The notes beneath the pieces were generated by a model. The model was not told the DNA's origin and searched no databases. It saw nothing but the letters and a program-made list of their open reading frames with translations. Position numbers and translations under genes: made by a program. A stretch of 64,000 nt of DNA from Pontixanthobacter gangjinensis (lineage in GTDB: Bacteria; Pseudomonadota; Alphaproteobacteria; Sphingomonadales; Sphingomonadaceae): the NCBI RefSeq assembly GCF_009827545.1, contig NZ_WTYS01000001.1:1141772-1205771 (forward strand). Reading direction: 5' to 3'. The stretch's first letter is position 1; each line of letters opens with the position of its first letter. This document shows positions 35,051-54,820 of the stretch, in pieces.

Positions 35051-36163
35051 ATGAGCGGCAGGGCGGAATTCACTCTCGAAGAGCATGGCGAAGGCGGTAC
35101 CAGCCTGACGCTATTCGGCCCCTATCTTGTTTCAACTATTGGCGAAATTGATCGCGAGCTGCGCAAGATCGGCGGTGACATCGACCGGGTGGATTTATCC
35201 GGTGTGGATGCGATTGACACAGTTGGTGCATGGGTCGCGTGCAATTTTGCGGCCCGGCATAATGCGGAAATCACCGGCGCGAGTGAACGCGCGCAACGTT
35301 TGCTCGATGCGGTCGAATCAGCTGGCAACGATGCGAATATCGCGGCAGAGCGATTGCCATTCTGGACCCGCATTCCGGTGCATGTCGGCGGATTAACGAT
35401 CCAGTTCTTCTTCGGCGTGCTGGGGGTGATCGGCTTTTTCGGTCAAATCCTGATGGCTTCGGGCAGCCTGATCCGGCATCCAAGCCGTTTCCGCGGAAAG
35501 GCGCTGGTTCGTCAGTTGGAATTGGTCGGCGTCAGCGCCCTGCCGATTGTCGGACTGATGAGTTTTCTGATCGGGATCGTAATCGCACAGCAAGGCGCGG
35601 TGCAATTGCAGCAATTCGGCGCAGAAACTCTGACCGTCAATCTGGTCGGGCGGATTACTTTACGAGAGCTTGGCGTGTTGATGACCGCGATCATGATTGC
35701 GGGCCGGTCCGGTTCGGCCTTTGCGGCGCAAATCGGCACGATGAAGCTGACCGAAGAGGTCGATGCGATGCGCACGATCGGGATTTCCCCTATCGAAGCG
35801 CTGGTGATCCCGCGTATTCTCGCCTCGGTGCTGATGATGCCGTTGCTCGGATTTTATGCCGCAGCCGTAGCGATAGTGGGCGGCGCGGTGGTCGCGGATT
35901 TGGCGCTCGACATACCGTTTCTGACATTCCTGTCGCGGATCAAGGAAGTGGTGCCAACGTATGACCTTTGGGTCGGCCTGATTAAGGCACCGTTCTTTGG
36001 ACTGATTATTGGCATGGCGGGTTGCTATAATGGTATGCAGGTGAAGGGCAATTCCGAGCAAGTCGGGCGCCGCACAACGCAGGCGGTGGTCTCGGCCATC
36101 TTCATGGTTATCGTGCTTGATGCATTCTTCGCGGTGTTCTTTACCGAAATGGGTTGGGGCTGA
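35051..36163 (+). CDS. mlaE: Phospholipid transport permease with fused STAS domain (MlaB-MlaE)
   Basis: A 370-residue protein. Residues 1-105 look like a STAS domain ([20 protein letters not shown], then [20 protein letters not shown]), the role of the separate MlaB in E. coli. The remainder is the MlaE permease with five to six membrane helices and the conserved GMLTA-like core ([20 protein letters not shown], then [20 protein letters not shown]). It forms the inner-membrane channel of an MCE transporter that moves phospholipid between the membranes and maintains outer-membrane asymmetry. Its TGATGG end overlaps the mlaF start by one base. Confidence 0.92.
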
Positions 36164-37041
36164 TGGCTGACGACGCACTACCCGAAGAATTGAAAGGACG
36201 CTTCGTCGATGAATTTCCAATTGTGGTCGAAGGACTGGTCAATCGGTTCGGCACGCAAACGGTGCATGATAATCTTTCGCTCGAAGTCCGGCAGGGAGAA
36301 ATCCTAGGTGTGGTAGGCGGATCGGGCACCGGCAAGTCGGTGTTAATGCGCTCAATAATCGGGCTGCAGCGACCAAATGACGGTGACATACGGGTATTCG
36401 GAAAGTCGATCACCGAAGCGGAGCCGGATGAAGAGATCGGTGTGCGCAGCCGCTGGGGCGTGTTGTTCCAGGGCGGGGCGCTGTTTTCCACCCTGACAGT
36501 GGGCGAAAATGTTCAAGTTCCGCTCAAGCAATTCTATCCCGAAATCAGCAAGGAACTTCTAACCGATATTGCGCGCTACAAGGTGATGTTGTCGGGCCTG
36601 CCGGAAGACGCTGCGGACAAATACCCTTCCGAATTGTCAGGCGGGATGAAAAAGCGCGCAGGCCTTGCCCGGGCGCTGGCGCTCGATCCCGAATTGCTGT
36701 TTCTAGACGAGCCGACCGCTGGCCTCGATCCCATCGGCGCGGCACGGTTTGATCAATTGACGCGAGAGCTGAAGGAAACGCTGGGCCTGACCGTATTCCT
36801 GATCACCCATGATCTTGATACGCTGTACGAAATTTGCGACCGCGTGGCCGTACTTGCCGATAAGCAAGTGATTGCCGTGGGCACCATCCCGGAATTGCTC
36901 GAGACTGAACATCCGTGGATTCAGGAATATTTCAACGGCCCACGGGGCCGCGCCGCGCAGGCTAGCCAAAAACGGGACAAGCGTAAGGCAGCGACAAGTT
37001 CTTCGCGATCAATGGACAACCGCCCCCCGAAACGGGCATAG
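36163..37041 (+). CDS. mlaF: Phospholipid transport ATP-binding protein MlaF
   Basis: A 292-residue ABC ATPase powering the MlaE permease. Walker A is GGSGTGKSV at about 52-60, the Q-loop LFQGGALFSTLTV follows, the signature is SELSGGMKKRAGLARALALD, Walker B is LLFLDEPTAGLDP, and the switch histidine is in VFLITHDLDT. About 25 residues precede the ABC domain. The C terminus is unusually basic (SQKRDKRKAATSSSRSMDN). The gene sits between mlaE and mlaD in one operon. Confidence 0.95.
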   Translation: MADDALPEELKGRFVDEFPIVVEGLVNRFGTQTVHDNLSLEVRQGEILGVVGGSGTGKSVLMRSIIGLQRPNDGDIRVFGKSITEAEPDEEIGVRSRWGVLFQGGALFSTLTVGENVQVPLKQFYPEISKELLTDIARYKVMLSGLPEDAADKYPSELSGGMKKRAGLARALALDPELLFLDEPTAGLDPIGAARFDQLTRELKETLGLTVFLITHDLDTLYEICDRVAVLADKQVIAVGTIPELLETEHPWIQEYFNGPRGRAAQASQKRDKRKAATSSSRSMDNRPPKRA

Positions 37042-37050
37042 AGGACAGAT

Positions 37051-37998
37051 ATGGAAACGCGGGCAAATCATCTTTGGGTCGGTATCGTCACACTCGCGCT
37101 GCTCGGCGCGCTGGCGGCATTTATCATCTGGATCGCGCAACTGGGTCAGGGCGAGCAGAAGGAATATGACATCTTCTTCAAACAGTCGGTGTCTGGCCTG
37201 GCCAATGGCTCGCAGGTTTCTTTCGCAGGTGTTCCGGTGGGGCAGGTTTCGCAGATTACCTTGTCGGAGAAAGACCCGGAATTTGTCCGTGTCCGCATTC
37301 GGGTGAAGAAGGATGTGGCCATTTTGGTCGGCACCGCTGCAACTATCCAAGGCTCATTCACCGGGGTGTCGACGATTTTGCTAGATGGTGCGCGGCAAGG
37401 AGCGCCGGCGATTACTTGTGAAACCACCGCATGTCCCGAGGGGGCACCCGTAATCCCGCCCAAGCCGGGCGGTTTGGGTGAGTTGCTCAACAGTGCGCCT
37501 GTTTTGCTTGAACGGATTGCGACGTTGACCGAACGGCTGACATTGTTGCTGTCGGATAAGAACCAAGGCGAGATTGCCGGCATTTTGGCCAATACCAATC
37601 GTATGACCGATCAATTGGCGGACACTGGGCCGCAATTGAAGACGACCTTGGCCAGCTTGCAAGGCACTTTGGATGAGGCGACCAAGGCATTGGCTGCGTT
37701 CGAACAAGTTACGCAGTCAACCGACAATTTGATGAACCAAGAGGGCGCGGCGCTTGCTCAGGAACTTCGCAAGACCCTGACATCTGCGGACAGTGCGGCA
37801 AAGTCACTGAGCGCAACGCTGGAAGATACAAGGCCCGCCGCACGTCAATTGGCGACCCAAACACTGCCAGCGGCGGAGGCGACTTTACAAGATCTGCGCG
37901 CGACCAGTCAGGCGCTGCGTAGCATAACCGAACGGCTGGAAAATGAGGGCGCAGCTTCGCTGCTCGGATCGCCGCCACTGCCGGATTATGAGCCATGA
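37051..37998 (+). CDS. mlaD: MCE-domain substrate-binding protein MlaD
   Basis: A 315-residue protein anchored by one N-terminal helix (HLWVGIVTLALLGALAAFIIWI). The MCE domain follows (YDIFFKQSVSGLANGSQVSF, GVPVGQVSQI, VRVRIRVKKDVAIL). The C-terminal 150 residues are helical with many glutamines, alanines and threonines and likely form coiled coils, longer than in the short E. coli MlaD. Hexameric MCE rings carry lipid between permease and periplasmic or outer-membrane partners. AGGACAG lies before the ATG. Its stop overlaps the next gene by four bases. Confidence 0.92.
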   Translation: METRANHLWVGIVTLALLGALAAFIIWIAQLGQGEQKEYDIFFKQSVSGLANGSQVSFAGVPVGQVSQITLSEKDPEFVRVRIRVKKDVAILVGTAATIQGSFTGVSTILLDGARQGAPAITCETTACPEGAPVIPPKPGGLGELLNSAPVLLERIATLTERLTLLLSDKNQGEIAGILANTNRMTDQLADTGPQLKTTLASLQGTLDEATKALAAFEQVTQSTDNLMNQEGAALAQELRKTLTSADSAAKSLSATLEDTRPAARQLATQTLPAAEATLQDLRATSQALRSITERLENEGAASLLGSPPLPDYEP

Positions 37999-38639
37999 AT
38001 ATGAATAAGGCCCCAGACGCGAAGAGCCAAGCTGCCAAAAGGAAACAGCCGATGAAGGCATGGATGAAGACAATCGTCGCAGGCGCTGCGGTGCTCGGCC
38101 TGTCGGGCTGCATCAGTCTCGGTTCCGAACCGCCGCCGAGTTTGCTGACGCTAACATCGACCAGCAGCGTTGCGGCGGGTATGACTTCCACCGGTACTGC
38201 GGACAGCGCGATTAAGATTCTGGAACCCGAAGTTCCCCAAAGACTGAATGTCACCCGGGTTCCGGTTCAGGTTGATGCGACTGAAATCGCCTATCTGAAA
38301 GATGCGGTTTGGGTCGAAAGACCCGCGCGCTTGTTCCAGCGGCTGTTGGCCGAAACGATCCGTGCCAAATCCAATCGGCTGGTGATCGACGGCGAAGATC
38401 CCGGCCTGATTGCCAAGTCGCAATTGCGCGGCACCTTGCGCGAATTTGGCTATGATGCGGCAACCTCTTCGGTCATTGTCAGGTTTGATGCGGTGCGAGC
38501 CGGCGCAGATGGCGCGATTGAAACCCGCCGGTTTGAAAGCGTCCAATCAGGTGTTGTGGCAGAGACCGGACCCGTTGGTGATGCGCTCAATCGCGGGGCC
38601 AATGATGTCGCCAGTCAAGTTGCGGACTGGATTGGCTAG
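37995..38639 (+). CDS. ABC-type transport auxiliary lipoprotein (PqiC/LptE-like)
   Basis: A 214-residue lipoprotein whose lipobox LSGC puts the lipidated cysteine at position 39 (AGAAVLGLSGCISLG). Initiation at Met20 (MKAWMKTIVAG) would give a normal-length signal peptide, yet the ATG at 37995 overlaps the mlaD stop, which supports translational coupling. The mature part has the DUF330/PqiC-like layout, with VPVQVDATEIAYLKDAVWVE, then RPARLFQRLLAETI. It probably links the inner-membrane MCE complex to the outer membrane in place of MlaA or MlaC, neither of which is seen here. Confidence 0.87.
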   Translation: MNMNKAPDAKSQAAKRKQPMKAWMKTIVAGAAVLGLSGCISLGSEPPPSLLTLTSTSSVAAGMTSTGTADSAIKILEPEVPQRLNVTRVPVQVDATEIAYLKDAVWVERPARLFQRLLAETIRAKSNRLVIDGEDPGLIAKSQLRGTLREFGYDAATSSVIVRFDAVRAGADGAIETRRFESVQSGVVAETGPVGDALNRGANDVASQVADWIG

Positions 38640-47349: not shown

Positions 47350-47604
47350 ATGCGTAAAACCGCCAAAGCTTGCGTAATTGCTCTTGGAATTATCTCAATT
47401 GCTTACAATACGTACAAGATGGCTCCTTGGGAAAATGGATGGGCTGACTTCATTGGAGTCGTAATTGTCGGCACAATTCTATATTTTGCGTTCGTTGCAG
47501 CGGTGTTCGGCATTCTGTCATGGGCAGAGACTTTTGCGCGGCGCAATAGAATGGGTGAAGCGCGCTTTGATAGTAAAACTGGAAAGCTGATTAAAGATGA
47601 GTAA
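47350..47604 (+). CDS. Small membrane protein inserted between gatA and gatB
   Basis: I do not recognise this 84-residue protein. It has two hydrophobic segments ([16 protein letters not shown] and [20 protein letters not shown]) and a hydrophilic C terminus ([20 protein letters not shown]). It starts directly behind the gatA stop and overlaps the gatB start by 8 bases. The 60-base stretches at 47401 and 47461 have 28 and 27 G+C, lower than the gat genes. It looks like a late insertion kept in the operon; a link to tRNA amidation is doubtful. Confidence 0.7.
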
Positions 47605-49096
47605 CTACCGCATCCAAGGCGCAACGGGCGAATGGGAGGTCGTGATCGGCCTTGAGGTTCATGCGCAGGTCACTTCCAACTCCAAGCTGTTCAGCGGCGC
47701 GGATACGACTTTTGGCGCGGAGCCGAATACGCAGGTGTCGCTGGTCGATGCGGCGATGCCCGGCATGTTGCCAGTGCTGAATGGCGAATGCGTCCGTCAG
47801 GCCGTGCGGACCGGCATGGCGATCGAGGCGCAGATCAACAAATATTCGCGCTTCGACCGGAAGAACTACTTCTACGCCGATTTGCCGCAGGGCTATCAGA
47901 TTTCTCAGCTCTATCACCCCATCGTGGGCGAGGGGCAGTTGCTGATCGAGAAGGACGAAAAGGCCGGTATTCCCGAAGACAAGATCATCGGGATCGAACG
48001 CATTCATATCGAGCAGGATGCGGGCAAGCTGATGCATGACCAGCACCCGACCATGTCCTATGTTGATCTGAACCGTTGCGGTGTCGCGCTGATGGAGATT
48101 GTCTCCAAGCCCGATATGACTTCGCCTGCAGAGGCCGGTGCTTATGTGCGCAAGCTGCGCTCGATCCTGCGCTATGTCGGGTCGTGCGACGGCAATATGG
48201 AGCAAGGCTCCATGCGCGCCGATGTCAACGTATCGGTGCGCAAGGTCGGTGATACCGAACTGGGCACACGGACTGAAACGAAGAACGTCAATTCGGTCCG
48301 CTTCGTCATGGCGGTGATCGAAAGCGAAGTGCGCCGTCAGGTCGATCTGATCGAAGATGGCGGCACGGTGGTGCAGGAAACGCGCCTCTACGATCCGGAC
48401 AAGAATGAAACGCGGTCCATGCGCAGCAAAGAAGACGCGCATGATTACCGCTACTTCCCCGATCCCGATTTGCTGCCGCTTAATCTTGAGGAAGATTTCC
48501 TTGAAGAATGCCGCGCCAGCCTGCCCGAACTGCCCGATGCCAAGCGGACCCGCTATGTCGAGGAACTGGGCCTGAGCGATTACAACGCGGCTGTCTTAAC
48601 CGTGGAAGTCGAAACCTTCGCGCGTTTCGAAACTTTGCTGGCGATTACAGCGAAGCATCTCGGCAAGCCCGAAGCCGAAATCGCCACTACGGTCGCCAAT
48701 TGGTCGATGTCGACCGCGCCCGGCGTGGTCAAAAGCCTCGGCGATGAAGCCAACCTTGAATATGCGACAGCCGAAGCGCAGGCTGCCATCCTGGGCATGC
48801 AAGGCGCAGGCGAGATTTCTGGAAGTCAGGCCAAGGAAATCTACGAAATTGTCCTCAAAACCGGCCGCGAGCCGGCCGAGATCGCCGACACCGAAGGGCT
48901 GAAGCAACAGTCCGATAGCGGCGCTATCGAGGCGGAAATCGACAAAATCCTCGTCGCCAATCAGGACAAGGTCGAACAATATAGAGGCGGCAAAGACAAG
49001 CTGTTCGGCTTCTTCGTGGGTCAAACCATGAAAGCGATGCAAGGCAAAGCCAATCCGGCGGTGGTGAATGAGCTGCTGAAGGCGAAGCTAGGCTAG
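47597..49096 (+). CDS. gatB: Glutamyl-tRNA(Gln) amidotransferase subunit B
   Basis: A 499-residue kinase-like subunit that phosphorylates Glu-tRNA(Gln) and receives ammonia from GatA. The N-terminal core [20 protein letters not shown], the metal-binding segment [20 protein letters not shown], and [11 protein letters not shown] are present. The tail domain (residues 390-499, [20 protein letters not shown] onward) is the YqeY-like tRNA-binding part. Length is standard. A strong terminator lies 20 bases after the stop. Confidence 0.97.
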
Positions 49097-49116: not shown

Positions 49117-49151
49117 AAAAAGGCCGCTGGAGCGATCCAGCGGCCTTTTGT
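49117..49151. terminator. Bidirectional terminator between gatB and the paralogue cluster
   Basis: AAGGCCGCTGGA and TCCAGCGGCCTT form a perfect 12-bp stem with a GCGA loop, flanked by A runs on the left and TTTTGTGTTTTT on the right. It ends gatB on the plus strand and, with AAAAAAA on the left arm, also the minus-strand cluster starting at 51777. Confidence 0.92.
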
Positions 49152-49172: not shown

Positions 49173-49952
49173 TTAACTGCTCAGGCGCTTTTTCGCGTTG
49201 TTGGCGTATTCCTCGAAATTGAGTTGGAAAACGGAATTTAGCTCATCAAGACCCTCAAGCGCATCTTCGCCTTCCTTAGGAGGAAATTTCTTGAGACCGT
49301 TACCGCCCCAGGCTTTGTATTGCTTGTCGATCTTGCCATCGTCTCCAAAGTTACGGACCATGAACAATGTCTTTAAAGACCGGCCGTAGATCATAGCTTT
49401 GGTGTACAGCACGTCAGCCACAATCAGTTCGCTGTAGCAGCTGGAATCGCTGTCGGCGCGCCGATCCTTGATCCGGTTCATAGTCTTGCGCTCCAAGGGT
49501 TCTTCGTGCCGGACTATAGTCGTTCCCGGTGTCAGCCCAAGCAAAGTGCGCAGGTCAAGTTCTTGCAGGGCATCAAGTTGGCTCGGGCTATCGAGTGCGC
49601 TTGCCATCAGAGTCTTGTTGTTTGCATCGGTGCCGGAGTTCAGGGCAGCATCAAGCAGGCCCCCGCCAAGCAAGCCTGTCGTGACCGAATTCATCCGTTC
49701 GGCAGGCCACATGTGCAATTCACAGCCATCCGCTGCAACTTTCGGCAAAAGGCCTTCAGTGTTCGCTTCATACTCGACCACTTCAGCAGCCTCGGTCGCC
49801 GCTTGAGCATCGGTTGCTTTCACAACTTCCTCAACAGTGCTTGCTTCCTGTATTTCTGCAGTCGCTTCGATCGCATCGGGATCTTGTGCCTGAGATGGCG
49901 CGCACAAAATCGCTGCCGCGACAGCTGTTCCTAGATAAAATTCCTTACGCAT
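49173..49952 (-). CDS. Secreted paralogue 1 of an unrecognised two-cysteine family
   Basis: A 259-residue protein with a signal peptide ending APSQA-QD, preceded by AAGGGGAG close to the ATG. An Ala/Glu/Thr-rich linker of about 50 residues leads to Cys77 in the motif CELHMW. A middle block reads LDLRTLLGLTPGTTIVRHEE, and the second cysteine lies in SCYSELIVADVLYTKAM. The C terminus carries KKFPPKEGEDALEG. Both motifs recur in the next two genes upstream, giving three tandem paralogues. I do not know the family. The two cysteines are the only ones in the mature chain and may form a disulfide in the periplasm. It is the last gene before the terminator at 49117. Confidence 0.85.
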   Translation of the reverse strand: MRKEFYLGTAVAAAILCAPSQAQDPDAIEATAEIQEASTVEEVVKATDAQAATEAAEVVEYEANTEGLLPKVAADGCELHMWPAERMNSVTTGLLGGGLLDAALNSGTDANNKTLMASALDSPSQLDALQELDLRTLLGLTPGTTIVRHEEPLERKTMNRIKDRRADSDSSCYSELIVADVLYTKAMIYGRSLKTLFMVRNFGDDGKIDKQYKAWGGNGLKKFPPKEGEDALEGLDELNSVFQLNFEEYANNAKKRLSS

Positions 49953-49987
49953 ATTGCTCCCCTTAATGTTCGTGTTGTAGTTTGTTT

Positions 49988-50692
49988 TTAATCGGTTTTT
50001 CGATTGCTTAATGCTCTGCCAAACTCAGCGATTGCTCCGCTAAATTCTGTCGTGAATTCGTCAAAGGCGGCTTTGACCTGCCCAGGTTCTTTGGGAGGAA
50101 AAAGCTTCACTCGTCTTTGGATATAACTGCCGAATTTATCTATCGGCTCGGCACCAGCATCAAACCGTCTGAAACGAAGTATGGCTTTCAGGAAGCGTCC
50201 ATCGATCAGATCTTCCTGAAAAAATACGTCGTCTACGACCAGCTCGGCATAGCAGGGAGTTGCCCTGCGCAGGATGCGACCTTTGGTGGAGCGCGCAACC
50301 CGGCTAGGCAACGGGTTCGCATGGACGGTCACAGAATAGCCGGGCAGGTTCAGGATTCCTGCAAGATCCATCTTCCGCATTTCTGATACTTGGACCTCAG
50401 GAGGCAGGACACGTTCGGGAAGCTCCTTGTATCCGTCTCGGCCCTTTACTGCTCCATCGACAATGCCGCCATGGAACCAGCCGGAATAGATCGACCGGAT
50501 GCCTTGTGTGGGCCACGCGTGCAGTTCGCATATTGGTTCAGCTGTTGCGGCGGCCGGGGCAGGATCAGCTTCCGGAGCGGACATTTCTATGTTTGTCGGT
50601 TTAGTTTCAGTTATTTCAGCCGAATTCTGTGCCGAGACTCCGCCGGATAAAACCAAGGAGATAACCAAGACAGAGGATGTTAGTGCTCTCAA
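49988..50692 (-). CDS. Secreted paralogue 2 of an unrecognised two-cysteine family
   Basis: A 234-residue protein starting at TTG, needed to obtain its clear signal peptide (MRALTSSVLVISLVLSGGVS, cleaved near AQ-NS). An acidic, Ala/Pro-rich linker precedes Cys55 in CELHAW. The shared middle block is LAGILNLPGYSVTVHANPLP, and the second cysteine is in PCYAELVVDDVFFQED. The end carries RRVKLFPPKEPGQVK, matching KKFPPKE in paralogue 1. Divergence between copies is substantial, so the duplication is not recent. It lies 88 bases after paralogue 3 and 35 before paralogue 1. Confidence 0.83.
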   Translation of the reverse strand: MRALTSSVLVISLVLSGGVSAQNSAEITETKPTNIEMSAPEADPAPAAATAEPICELHAWPTQGIRSIYSGWFHGGIVDGAVKGRDGYKELPERVLPPEVQVSEMRKMDLAGILNLPGYSVTVHANPLPSRVARSTKGRILRRATPCYAELVVDDVFFQEDLIDGRFLKAILRFRRFDAGAEPIDKFGSYIQRRVKLFPPKEPGQVKAAFDEFTTEFSGAIAEFGRALSNRKTD

Positions 50693-50780
50693 AATTAGTC
50701 GTCCGTTGTAGTCGCAGAAAACAGTCCTGCTCGCGATTTATCTCTGCTGCGAGCCGATCATTAATCCGAATATATGTATA

Positions 50781-51461
50781 TTATCGGTTATTTGATGGGA
50801 TGTCTTGTATCAGAGCGGCAAAATCGCTCAAATTTTGTTTGAAAGCGGCTTCCATGTCTAATTCGTAAGTGACCTGCTCTACATCTGTCTTTTCCTGGTC
50901 ATGTTTCAGGTTGGTTTGGGTCCATGTCCCCAATACGCGAACAGGGCGCTCGCCACCTTTGTCAAAAACACGAAGTCGGAAAAAGCTCTTGAGGTTTTGA
51001 CCGCGAGCATATTCGCGTGAATACACCACATCAGTCACCACCAGCTCGGCATAACATTCGGGGGCGCCGCGGGTATAGCGGGTCTTTACGCTACGAATGA
51101 GCCCGCTCGGAAGAGGCTTCTCGTGAGTGACCACCTTATACGCATCAAACCCGAACAAAGCTGGCAGATCGGCTTCTGACAGAATTTCCAACTGCCGCAA
51201 TGTGGGAAGTGGACCCCCGGGTTTTGCATTTTGGGTATTTACTTCGGCAGTGTTGCGCTCAATCCGGCCAACAGGAGAGCTCCCTAGGGCACCCATATAG
51301 CCAGTAGAAAGGTTATCACTGGCTCGCTGCCGGGTCTTGCTTAAACCGTCAGAGGCCCAAACATGCAGTTCGCACGTTTGGGCCTCTGTTGGCTGTACGT
51401 CTTGTGCCGTCGCTCCGGTCGAAACGACCAGTAACAGGCCGGTAAGAACGGCTAGGCGCAA
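50781..51461 (-). CDS. Secreted paralogue 3 of an unrecognised two-cysteine family
   Basis: A 226-residue protein, also from a TTG start, 10 bases after the stop of the 101-residue gene. The signal peptide is MRLAVLTGLLLVVSTGATAQ with mature start DVQP. Cys30 lies in CELHVW almost at the mature N terminus, without the long linker of paralogue 1. The block LPALFGFDAYKVVTHEKPLP and second cysteine ECYAELVVTDVVYSRE correspond to those of the others. It has no FPPKE motif but ends in a similar acidic-basic helix (AAFKQNLSDFAALIQDIPSN). Function unknown. Confidence 0.83.
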   Translation of the reverse strand: MRLAVLTGLLLVVSTGATAQDVQPTEAQTCELHVWASDGLSKTRQRASDNLSTGYMGALGSSPVGRIERNTAEVNTQNAKPGGPLPTLRQLEILSEADLPALFGFDAYKVVTHEKPLPSGLIRSVKTRYTRGAPECYAELVVTDVVYSREYARGQNLKSFFRLRVFDKGGERPVRVLGTWTQTNLKHDQEKTDVEQVTYELDMEAAFKQNLSDFAALIQDIPSNNR

Positions 51462-51471
51462 TTCGCTAACT

Positions 51472-51777
51472 TTACGCTTGGCGCTGGCCGGTCATTGCCA
51501 TTTTGCCGAATGCGCCTGCGTTGACTTCACCGACCAGCTGGTCGCCGTCGACAGTCGCTTCGCCTTCAAGCTTCATTGGCATGGGAACGGTCATATTCAT
51601 TGTCCATGTCAGCTTGTTGCCGTCAATCACGCCGTTTTCTAGTTCCATGCCGCCCATTGCGCCTTGATTGGTGCCAGTGAAGGTGGTGCCGTCATCACTT
51701 GGAACGATGGTCACAACGCTCTTCTGGTCGCCCATCGGGCTTTTGGTTACGCAATCATATGTTCCGGCTACTGACAT
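51472..51777 (-). CDS. Small beta-rich protein of unknown function
   Basis: A 101-residue protein without signal peptide. It opens MSVAGTYDCVTKSPMGDQKS and continues in short strands: VVTIVPSDDGTTFTGTNQGA, MELENGVIDGNKLTWTMNMT, then MKLEGEATVDGDQLVGEVN. The pattern of paired strands with DG/GN turns suggests a small lipocalin-like or calycin barrel. Similar unnamed proteins appear in sphingomonads as I recall them. GGAG lies 7 bases before the ATG. It may head the transcript that includes the three secreted paralogues. Confidence 0.75.
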   Translation of the reverse strand: MSVAGTYDCVTKSPMGDQKSVVTIVPSDDGTTFTGTNQGAMGGMELENGVIDGNKLTWTMNMTVPMPMKLEGEATVDGDQLVGEVNAGAFGKMAMTGQRQA

Positions 51778-51862: not shown

Positions 51863-54820
51863 TTATTCGGTTTCAAGCTCGCGCACCTCGATCGGCAGGC
51901 CAAGCTGGTCAAGCTGCGGCCGGACCACTTCGGCATCACCAACAATCACGAACACCAGATCTTCCCCGCGCAGGGACATTTTGGCCGCTGCATCAAGCTC
52001 ATCTGCGGTAAGCGCCGAATATTTCGCCGCCAGCGTTTCGTAATAATTGTCGGGGCGATCCAGCGTGATGATATTGACGATGCCGCCAAGCACATCGCGG
52101 CTGGTTTCAAACTGGCCCGGAAGTTCGCGGACATTGCCGTTGATCAACCGTGTGAGCTCTTCTGAAGTGACGCCGTTGCCGCTGGTGTAGGACGCCAGAT
52201 CCTTGCGCAATTCGACGATGGAATCACCCGTTCGATCAGCCTGAACCGGCGCGTATAGGACGAAGCTGATGCGGTCGATCGGTGACTGCAGGATACTACG
52301 AACCCCGTATGACCAGCCCTTCGTCTCGCGCAGATTCATGTTGATCCGGCTTAGGAAACTGCCGCCAAACACTTCATTGGCGGACCGCAATATGGTCAGA
52401 TCGTCAGTGCCTTTCTGATCGAGCACGCGGCCAGCGAGGATCACCGATTGTGGTGAGTTGGGCCGGTTTATCAGCACAACGCGGGGAGTCTGGCTTGGTA
52501 TTGCCGCGTCATAGGTCTTTATTGGCGCTTGCACATTGGGGGCGGTCCAATCGCCGAAGCTGGCATTGAGCAGCCGCACGGTTTCGACTAGCGAAGTGTC
52601 CCCCACCACGAACACCCGCGCCTTATCAGGGCGCAGCCACATCCGGTGAAAATCGGTCATTTCATCGCGGGTAACGGTGGCTACGACAGCTGGATCGCCA
52701 GTGCCGGTAGGCGGAATGCCGTAGGGGTGATCGCCGAACAAAATGGGGGCGAGGGCGCGTTGCCCGATTGCTGCCGGATTATTCAGCTCGTTAGTAATCC
52801 GGGTCAATTGCTGTGCGCGGACACGCTCCAGATCAGTCGGGCTGAACGCCGGATTGCGGATGTAATCAGCCAGCAAATTGAGCGACCCGAGGAAGTTGGG
52901 CGTTACTGCGTCGAGGCCGAAGGATGTTGTATCGGCATCAGCGCTGGAGAAAATTGACGCACCAAGTTTCTCGCGCTCGATTGCGAAGGCGGCGCTATCG
53001 AAATTGGCGGTGCCTTCATCCATCGCTTGCAGCATCAACGACTGCAGGCCGAGGCGGTCCTTAGGATCGGCGGAATAACCGGCATCGAACGTCACACGGA
53101 CGCTAACAACCGGCACGGCGTCACGCTTGGCAAAATAGACTTCCATTCCGTTATCGAGCGTTGCCCGTTCGATTTCGGGGAAGTCTAGCGGCTTCAATTC
53201 GCCAACATCGGGCAGCTTCGACCGGTCGGCCTCGCCAGCTGCGGGGAGGGGCGCCGACGCAGAACCCTGCATACTTACCGGGTTGATGTAGAACGCTGGC
53301 TGCATGCCTGCACCTTCGGGAGCCACCACGTAACCGCCACGATCTTCGCCGCCTTCGGTTCGGTCGCCGGGTTCGACGATCAATTCGAATACCGGACGCG
53401 ACAGCCATTTGGCGGTTACGGTGCGGACTTCGTCAGGCGTAAGGCTGGCTGCACGGCGCAAGGTTGTTTTGTAAGCGTCAGGGCTGCCTTCATACAGCAG
53501 GCCCTCGGCCAAGGTCGGGGCTTTGCCGCTGAATCCGCCAATTTGTTCAAGACCGCGGATTTGACCGGCGGCGTAGACCGTGGTGGCACGCTGGATTTCA
53601 GCGTCGGTCGGGCCTTCGGCGACGAACTTTGCGATCTCTTCATCAAGCGCAGCAGCGAGAACGTCTTGGTCAACACCAGGACGCGCGTTGGCATAGACAA
53701 CAAATTGGCCAGCTTGCGCGAAAATTTCAGCGCGGGCGACTACGCTCACCGCCAACTGTTTTTCACGGACCAGAACATTGTCGAGCCGCGAGCTGGCGAG
53801 GCCACCCAACACGGTCGCACCCATTGAGAGGGGCAGGTAGTCAGGGTTGTCGAGCCCGGGAACGGCCCACATACGGTAAAGCCGGGTTGTCGCGACGCGG
53901 TCCTGAATGGTTTTGGAAAGCGGCGCGTCCAAAGTCGGCACCGGAGCATCAACTTTGGGAGTTTCTGGACCGCGTTTGATCGCGCCGAACCACTTGTTGA
54001 CCTTGGCTTTCGCAGTCGCAATGTCGACATCGCCGGCCAATACGAGCACCGCGTTATTCGGGCCGTAATTGTCGCGGAACCACTGCTTCACATCCTCCAA
54101 CGTGGCGGAGGATAGGTCGTCCATCGAACCAATGGTGGAGTGGTGATAAGGGTGGCCCGAGGGGTAAAGGTTCTCAAGCTGTTCATATTCAGTCAGGCCG
54201 AATGGCTGATTGTCGCCTTGCCGTTTTTCGTTCTGGACAACGCCGATCTGGTTATCGAGCTTCTCCTGCGTCACTGCGCCGAGGAGATAGCCCATCCGGT
54301 CGCTTTCCAGCATCAGCGCGCGGTCGAGCGCAGCGGTAGGGACGCTTTCGAAATAATTGGTCCGGTCAAACCATGTGGTGCCGTTGAGATCGGTCGCACC
54401 GATTTGCTGCAGTGGCTCGAAGAAATCACCGGGAGCGTTTTCCGAACCGTTGAACATCAGATGTTCAAACAAATGGGCAAAGCCTGTCTTGCCTTCCGGC
54501 TCATGCTTCGATCCAACATTGTACCAAACTGACAGCGCGACCAGCGGGGCCTTCCGGTCGGTATGCACAAGCACAGTCAGACCATTGTCGAGTGTGAACT
54601 GGTCATAGGGTATCGAAACCGCATCTATCAGTTCGGAAACAGGGGCGGGACTGTGGTTGTTGGCGTCGGCAGCGGCAATGGCGGGATCAGCTGCGTCGGC
54701 CATTGCATCGGCTGCATCCATTGATGCGGTGGTCAGTTCTTTGCCGGTCGCCGAACACGCAGCAAGTGCGACAGCGAGCAGGCTTGCCGAAGCAAAGCGG
54801 CTGATGGAATTAAGACGCAT
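51863..54820 (-). CDS. M16 family zinc metallopeptidase lipoprotein
   Basis: A 985-residue protein with a lipoprotein signal (SASLLAVALAACSATG, lipidated Cys22). The inverted zinc motif HLFEH is at 117-121 within TGFAHLFEHLMFNGSEN. The first half is an active M16 domain. The second half repeats the fold (DNGMEVYFAKRDAVPVVSVR and the following LQSLMLQAMDEGTANFDSAA) without HxxEH, as in insulysin-like enzymes with an inactive second domain. It degrades peptides in the periplasm or at the outer-membrane inner face. AGGGGACT lies before the ATG. Full length for the two-domain form. Confidence 0.93.
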   Translation of the reverse strand: MRLNSISRFASASLLAVALAACSATGKELTTASMDAADAMADAADPAIAAADANNHSPAPVSELIDAVSIPYDQFTLDNGLTVLVHTDRKAPLVALSVWYNVGSKHEPEGKTGFAHLFEHLMFNGSENAPGDFFEPLQQIGATDLNGTTWFDRTNYFESVPTAALDRALMLESDRMGYLLGAVTQEKLDNQIGVVQNEKRQGDNQPFGLTEYEQLENLYPSGHPYHHSTIGSMDDLSSATLEDVKQWFRDNYGPNNAVLVLAGDVDIATAKAKVNKWFGAIKRGPETPKVDAPVPTLDAPLSKTIQDRVATTRLYRMWAVPGLDNPDYLPLSMGATVLGGLASSRLDNVLVREKQLAVSVVARAEIFAQAGQFVVYANARPGVDQDVLAAALDEEIAKFVAEGPTDAEIQRATTVYAAGQIRGLEQIGGFSGKAPTLAEGLLYEGSPDAYKTTLRRAASLTPDEVRTVTAKWLSRPVFELIVEPGDRTEGGEDRGGYVVAPEGAGMQPAFYINPVSMQGSASAPLPAAGEADRSKLPDVGELKPLDFPEIERATLDNGMEVYFAKRDAVPVVSVRVTFDAGYSADPKDRLGLQSLMLQAMDEGTANFDSAAFAIEREKLGASIFSSADADTTSFGLDAVTPNFLGSLNLLADYIRNPAFSPTDLERVRAQQLTRITNELNNPAAIGQRALAPILFGDHPYGIPPTGTGDPAVVATVTRDEMTDFHRMWLRPDKARVFVVGDTSLVETVRLLNASFGDWTAPNVQAPIKTYDAAIPSQTPRVVLINRPNSPQSVILAGRVLDQKGTDDLTILRSANEVFGGSFLSRINMNLRETKGWSYGVRSILQSPIDRISFVLYAPVQADRTGDSIVELRKDLASYTSGNGVTSEELTRLINGNVRELPGQFETSRDVLGGIVNIITLDRPDNYYETLAAKYSALTADELDAAAKMSLRGEDLVFVIVGDAEVVRPQLDQLGLPIEVRELETE

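Follow-up and report, generated by a model that had tools for sequence, protein, structure and literature searches.

We find that three tandem genes on the minus strand of the window (the whole analysed stretch of 64,000 nucleotides from Pontixanthobacter gangjinensis) encode members of a protein family that, judged by sequence comparison, is genuine and is unnamed in the copies of Pfam and NCBIfam searched. The proteins are likely exported and likely carry a conserved disulfide, and their common domain probably has the fold of the PqiC/XCC0632, CsgG, PelC, FlgT and LptE group. The reading we favour, with a probability of about 0.42, is that the three are non-lipidated, disulfide-pinned periplasmic proteins of PqiC-like fold, which would probably act as scaffold or adaptor subunits at the outer membrane.

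Paralogue 1 (226 aa, 50781-51461) and paralogue 2 (234 aa, 49988-50692) begin with TTG, and paralogue 3 (259 aa, 49173-49952) begins with an ATG that is preceded by AAGGGGAG, a purine-rich leader. Their signal peptides, judged by eye, end in ...GATA, ...GGVSA and ...APSQA respectively, each directly before a Q (ATA, VSA and SQA as the last three residues). Two cysteine codons fall in one alignment column each: the first, within the CELH motif, at 51372-51374 (Cys30, paralogue 1), 50528-50530 (Cys55, paralogue 2) and 49722-49724 (Cys77, paralogue 3), and the second, within the CYxEL motif, at 51054-51056 (Cys136), 50252-50254 (Cys147) and 49437-49439 (Cys172), all on the minus strand. From the first of these to the C-terminal end each protein has exactly two cysteines, as had been claimed for the mature proteins; the one extra cysteine, in paralogue 3, lies within its signal peptide. 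The sequence-only reading had described three minus-strand genes separated by 35 and 88 bases, and these gaps, the coordinates and the stops are all as it gave them. Its signal peptides, CELHxW and CYxELxVxDV motifs are likewise present in every one of the three, while its GFxxYxVxxHExPL block is strict in paralogue 1 only (GFDAYKVVTHEKPL) and the other two deviate from it (LPGYSVTVHANPL, LTPGTTIVRHEEPL). In single-comparison BLASTP paralogue 2 is 29% identical to paralogue 1 (E 1e-23) and 30% identical to paralogue 3 (E 3e-24), with 26% identity between paralogues 1 and 3 across the domain, so that the paralogy of the three genes, as read from their sequences, exceeds chance. The G+C content of the cluster is 52.0% as compared to 55.6% for the window, which places it at the 4th percentile among stretches of the same length.

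A protein scan of named genomes yielded six loci, five in Novosphingobium and one in another Sphingomonadales MAG. With a nine-row profile the family was found in at least 38 of 396 genomes of the order, the window's own included, all of them within its own taxonomic family; with a 57-row profile at E 0.01 it was found in at least 6 of 385 genomes across the class, both counts being lower bounds because no more than 7 candidates were scored in each genome. These class-wide matches comprise the window's genome, one other of its taxonomic family, three marginal partial ones and the genome G656, the one clear match outside the order (E 1.5e-38), in which CEIHVW and CYYEL motifs can be recognised by eye. 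The window's genome holds three copies only by profile, and a single-protein search added one match at chance level (E 0.18). Among plasmids, tblastn with paralogue 2, and also with a relative from locus L049, returned one distant member in Sphingomonas hankookensis, and no member was returned with paralogue 3. That member (plasmid NZ_CP117027.1; 10001-10633 of locus L163) is annotated as hypothetical, and its annotated start seems too late, since the similarity begins 39 bases earlier and the annotated protein is missing the CELH motif.

The 57 members compared below are 59 family ORFs minus the two of locus L043, which were omitted since their contig seems to duplicate the L001 record; L082 contributed no member, and the G656 and plasmid proteins stand outside this set. 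Start codons of the relatives were picked by a simple script, and that of the L006 protein is probably too early. All 57 share Cys55, Arg139 and Cys147 (numbered as in paralogue 2); His58 and Gln101 are nearly invariant, and few polar residues are conserved beyond the motifs. CELHxW-like and CYxEL-like motifs occur in most members, with variant motifs in a few. Counted from the first conserved cysteine, every member has exactly two, spaced 87-117 residues apart, and 52 of the 57 have an [AVSGTIL]-X-[AGS] site followed by Q within the first 45 residues, a simple pattern rather than the output of a signal-peptide predictor.

These counts support the earlier description of the trio as probable periplasmic or secreted proteins with one conserved disulfide. 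Since two lone invariant cysteines would enter an oxidising compartment upon export, a structural disulfide between them is likely, and strongly inferred. A top-down study of the sphingomonad N. aromaticivorans (PMC3608174) reports 17 two-cysteine proteins in the periplasmic fraction, only two of them without a disulfide, and neither of these two had its signal peptide removed. In Table 1 of the study 12 proteins are listed as having a disulfide, and 7 of the 12 had lost their signal peptide; AXA cleavage and N-terminal pyroglutamate were both common in the exported proteins. Alternatively, the cysteine pair might be a reversible thiol switch or a metal site, given that just these two cysteines are absolutely conserved, with the nearly invariant His58 and the invariant Arg139 near them in sequence. 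We regard this as improbable: the spacing of the pair means that there is no CxxC, and disulfides are what that study of a related bacterium reports for most two-cysteine proteins of the periplasmic fraction.

Sequence comparison ties the family to nothing named. The three proteins and the other 54 members gave scattered weak matches only against Pfam and NCBIfam, each in one to three members; PF03886, the PqiC family, had no match to the three up to E 10 and is not one of the 15 families that any of the 57 matched at up to E 1. CsgG (PF03783), LptE (PF04390) and DUF4136 (PF13590) showed neither a sequence nor a profile match to the family. In profile comparisons the family reached under 1% against each of PF03886, CsgG, LptE and DUF4136, peaked at 2.1% when PF03886, CsgG and LptE were taken with 14 neighbour families, and peaked at 0.2% against DUF4136 and TrbI, while the positive control, in which three distant clades of the family were set against its remaining members, gave 99-100%. 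The missing sequence link to the fold group is nevertheless weak evidence, because PqiC/CsgG/LptE/DUF4136-type families hardly link to each other (best 12% in the five pairs compared). Sequence searches with paralogue 3 alone or with the family found no credible match among solved structures, and the string CELHVW was not found in the open-licence papers searched, so that the family may be described elsewhere. The sequence-only reading knew of no described family with these motifs, and in line with this no sequence family in the Pfam and NCBIfam libraries convincingly matches the trio or its relatives.

The predicted structures give a different picture. An AlphaFold2 model of paralogue 2 (9-row alignment) has a mean pLDDT of 77 and a pTM of 0.70, with 115 of 234 residues at 90 or above and the first 50 at low confidence; the model of the paralogue 3 domain (14-row alignment) has a pLDDT of 84 and a pTM of 0.83, and both were thus built on shallow alignments. 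The latter runs through a strand at 5-10, short strands, helices between 31 and 65 and a strand at 73-76, followed by long strands at 100-114, 118-130 and 135-148 and a helix at 158-186, the first cysteine beginning strand 5-10 and the second strand 100-114. In the paralogue 2 model, Cys55 is the first residue of predicted strand 1 and Cys147 lies where a long predicted strand begins. Foldseek against the PDB returned for paralogue 2 FlgT, XCC0632, CsgG, PqiC, LptE, PelC or like lipoproteins as 39 of the first 42 matches, the exceptions being an uncharacterised Chlamydia protein (ranks 3 and 5) and an unrelated enzyme (rank 37), and for paralogue 3 all of the first 43 were PqiC, CsgG, XCC0632, PelC, FlgT, LptE, TolB or a Caulobacter lipoprotein. 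In these tallies 3bf2 (twice), 4kwy (twice; presumably DUF4136) and TolB are assumed to belong to the fold group, and 8z5n (twice; the LPHT ring chain) is taken to be FlgT from its length. The top three for paralogue 3 were 6osx (E 1.1e-5) and two rows of 8q2d, and 8q2c and 2iqi ranked shortly after them. Matches at E 0.001 numbered 8 for paralogue 2, two of them the Chlamydia protein, and 10 for paralogue 3, and viral models gave no match at E 0.001 or better. The best E was 1e-5, and we grade the fold as probable because the TM-scores of these matches are at most 0.5 and their rmsd is about 6-19 A; the PqiC/XCC0632-type matches of paralogue 3 have a probability of about 1.00 yet TM-scores of 0.3-0.4. 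The earlier view of the family as unrecognised therefore stands at the level of sequence, where no link to a characterised family was found, but has to be qualified at the level of predicted fold, where two models match a known group.

Alternatively, the fold match might be topological and the trio might be soluble periplasmic carriers or chaperones for a small ligand or client, the disulfide serving stability alone. The low TM-scores, the lack of any visible lipid anchor and the scarcity of conserved polar residues beyond the motifs (Arg139 invariant, Gln101 nearly) would all fit such proteins. Against this, two separately modelled paralogues draw most of their matches from one structural group, whose members are for the most part envelope assembly proteins, and we consider the carrier or chaperone role somewhat unlikely. 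A component resembling FlgT of the flagellar T-ring is suggested by the two best matches of paralogue 2, 8z5n and 3w1e, the latter being FlgT. FlgT occurs together with flagella, and a flagellar role is disfavoured because FlgH, found in 24 of the 38 family-bearing genomes, was not found in the other 14, the window's own among them; we therefore hold this possibility to be scarcely credible.

Under the favoured reading of the trio as disulfide-pinned scaffold or adaptor subunits, three non-lipidated periplasmic proteins of one undescribed family would be exported by Sec, each mature protein consisting of an N-terminal linker of varying length and then one alpha/beta domain of PqiC/XCC0632-CsgG-PelC type. 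Strand 1 and the long later strand would be tied together at their starts, in the CELH and CYxEL motifs respectively, by the invariant disulfide. By analogy with the fold group the domain would most likely oligomerise, perhaps as a ring, against the inner side of the outer membrane, where it would act as scaffold or adaptor for another envelope protein. Having diverged, the paralogues would not be redundant; they would form different subunits or layers. We infer this oligomerisation, location and role by analogy with solved relatives that form rings: PqiC and XCC0632 are described as octamers (PMC10897342), and PelC as a lipoprotein forming a dodecamer beneath the PelB barrel, one that also formed in crystals without lipid anchors (PMC12141448). 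PqiC, PelC and CsgG are, however, all lipoproteins, and no lipobox is visible by eye in the present proteins; the proposal that PqiC without its lipid is monomeric (PMC10897342) counts against rings in a lipid-free family. Bolder still, and in our estimate distinctly doubtful, is the idea of a new Sphingomonadales lineage of lipid-free, disulfide-pinned outer-membrane rings, in which tandem paralogues would build one ring, mixed or stacked, that needs periplasmic oxidation for its stability and would dock on an undescribed envelope machine.

In a tree of the 57 members the two genes of Novosphingobium-type pairs separate: their first genes group with paralogue 2 (10 rows, support 96/93) and their second genes with paralogue 3 (16 rows including five single-copy ones, support 89/85, which falls below the star threshold of the tool), paralogue 1 being without firm placement. 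Outside the window, nine loci (L001-L005, L044-L047) have a pair in this first/second order, which suggests, from sequence relationships, that the duplication predates the split of these genera. The old tandem duplication that had been proposed is supported. In L048 the upstream copy is very divergent. Within the window's genus, G252 has a single copy of another clade and G182, G285 and G308 have no copy among the matches listed, so copies appear to have been lost or exchanged. We also note that two genomes, G297 (L073, L077) and G240 (L047, L076), carry the family at two separate loci, with different clades. Among orthologue pairs dN is 0.10-0.52 and dS at least 0.6, dS being not computable in 5 of 21 pairs; for the eight pairs that include a window gene dN/dS means little, because dS is 3.2-5.8 in three and not computable in five.

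The cluster is closed by a terminator-like hairpin at 49118-49149, to which no strand is assigned, and which lies between convergent genes; its minus-strand fold has -25.6 kcal/mol and a z of -4.95, with 0 of 200 shuffles equally good, in agreement with the strong terminator that had been noted at this end. The hairpin may serve the convergent plus-strand gene that ends at 49096 (47597-49096; gatB-like) as well as the trio. At the other end a 101-residue gene (51472-51777, minus strand; no signal peptide by eye) stops 10 bases before paralogue 1, and beyond it follows, as upstream neighbour, an M16 peptidase of 985 aa (51863-54820, minus strand; assigned by Pfam). The 101-residue protein has no Pfam or NCBIfam match and is 61-63% identical to four relatives, and a sequence search of solved structures with its family gave nothing credible. 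It had been suggested as the head of the trio's operon, an idea that is unproven and now looks weak, because the gene keeps company with the M16 gene: its homologues adjoin an M16 gene in all six loci that have a recognised homologue (L043 duplicating L001), and in L063 the homologue sits beside the M16 gene with the family gene several genes off. Co-transcription with the M16 peptidase gene is possible.

Across the 47 loci compared (L001-L006, L043-L082 and the window; one a duplicate and one empty) a gatB-like cluster was recognised in 22 and a gatA-like one in 18, names that we presume for these neighbours; the M16 peptidase cluster, whose Pfam assignment covers the window gene, was recognised in 17, and the 101-residue family in six. 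Single-copy relatives have other company. One family, c5 ('GDxFxVTVLxDV ... IPKGxxGxGEV'), lies directly upstream of the family gene in eight loci and downstream in one, so close in places that the gap vanishes or the genes overlap slightly, an operon-like spacing, and another, c7 ('GGGLLGALII...SPDFTQIRV'), lies directly downstream in seven, so that c5, c7 and the family gene form a probable operon in many of them (L059-L070, L075). One representative of c5 and two of c7 had no Pfam match at E 0.1, neither family matched a solved structure credibly by sequence, and neither was found in the window's genome, an empty result obtained without a control. A TrbI/VirB10-like identity for c5 was considered and rejected (profile comparison 1.3% over 54 columns).

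The window also contains an MCE-type lipid transport operon at 35051-38639, about 10.5 kb from the trio and on the opposite strand. Its last gene (37995-38639) is, by Pfam, a PF03886 auxiliary lipoprotein, and its other genes we name presumptively, from the starts of their sequences. The trio might accordingly be thought an auxiliary subunit of this transporter, which already has a PqiC-type lipoprotein of its own, as that lipoprotein belongs to a family whose solved fold the trio resembles and as PF03886 and family genes lie about 11-15 kb apart in all four genomes matched in both searches (G000, G252, G019, G177). However, the two lie on opposite strands and are not one operon in the window. 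Roughly half of the 47 loci have no recognised gatB or M16 neighbour, so the linkage may reflect nothing more than synteny. Moreover, 37 of 40 relatives had a PF03886 match, as compared to the at least 38 of 396 genomes of the order (another sample) for the family, and the transporter therefore seems not to need the family. We judge such a subunit decidedly improbable.

The analysis thus provides a coherent family missing from the Pfam and NCBIfam copies searched with a structural hypothesis. If rings were indeed formed, the PqiC/PelC/CsgG group would gain members with a disulfide instead of a lipid anchor, and would do so in bacteria whose outer membrane, rich in sphingolipids, differs from that of E. 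coli. If not, the trio would represent a lineage-specific family of an ordinary kind.

With regard to named systems, LptE and DUF4136 are the weaker fold matches to the trio models, and genes for both are present elsewhere in the window's genome. FlgT is the second match of the paralogue 2 model and, via the chain that we take for it, probably also the first. CsgG, the membrane pore of the curli system, matches both models (best E 5.9e-4 for paralogue 2 and 5.3e-5 for paralogue 3), with no match to PF03783 in the window's genome, and PelC likewise matches both in fold. PqiC/XCC0632 (ABC_trans_aux, formerly DUF330) may share the predicted alpha/beta fold of the trio, but the trio has no detectable sequence similarity to them, has its own motifs with an invariant cysteine pair, and in the window stands outside the MCE operon that holds the PF03886 gene. 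PqiC has a lipid-anchoring cysteine at the end of its signal peptide that is missing, by eye, from the trio, whereas the two invariant cysteines of the trio sit within the mature domain, at predicted strands.
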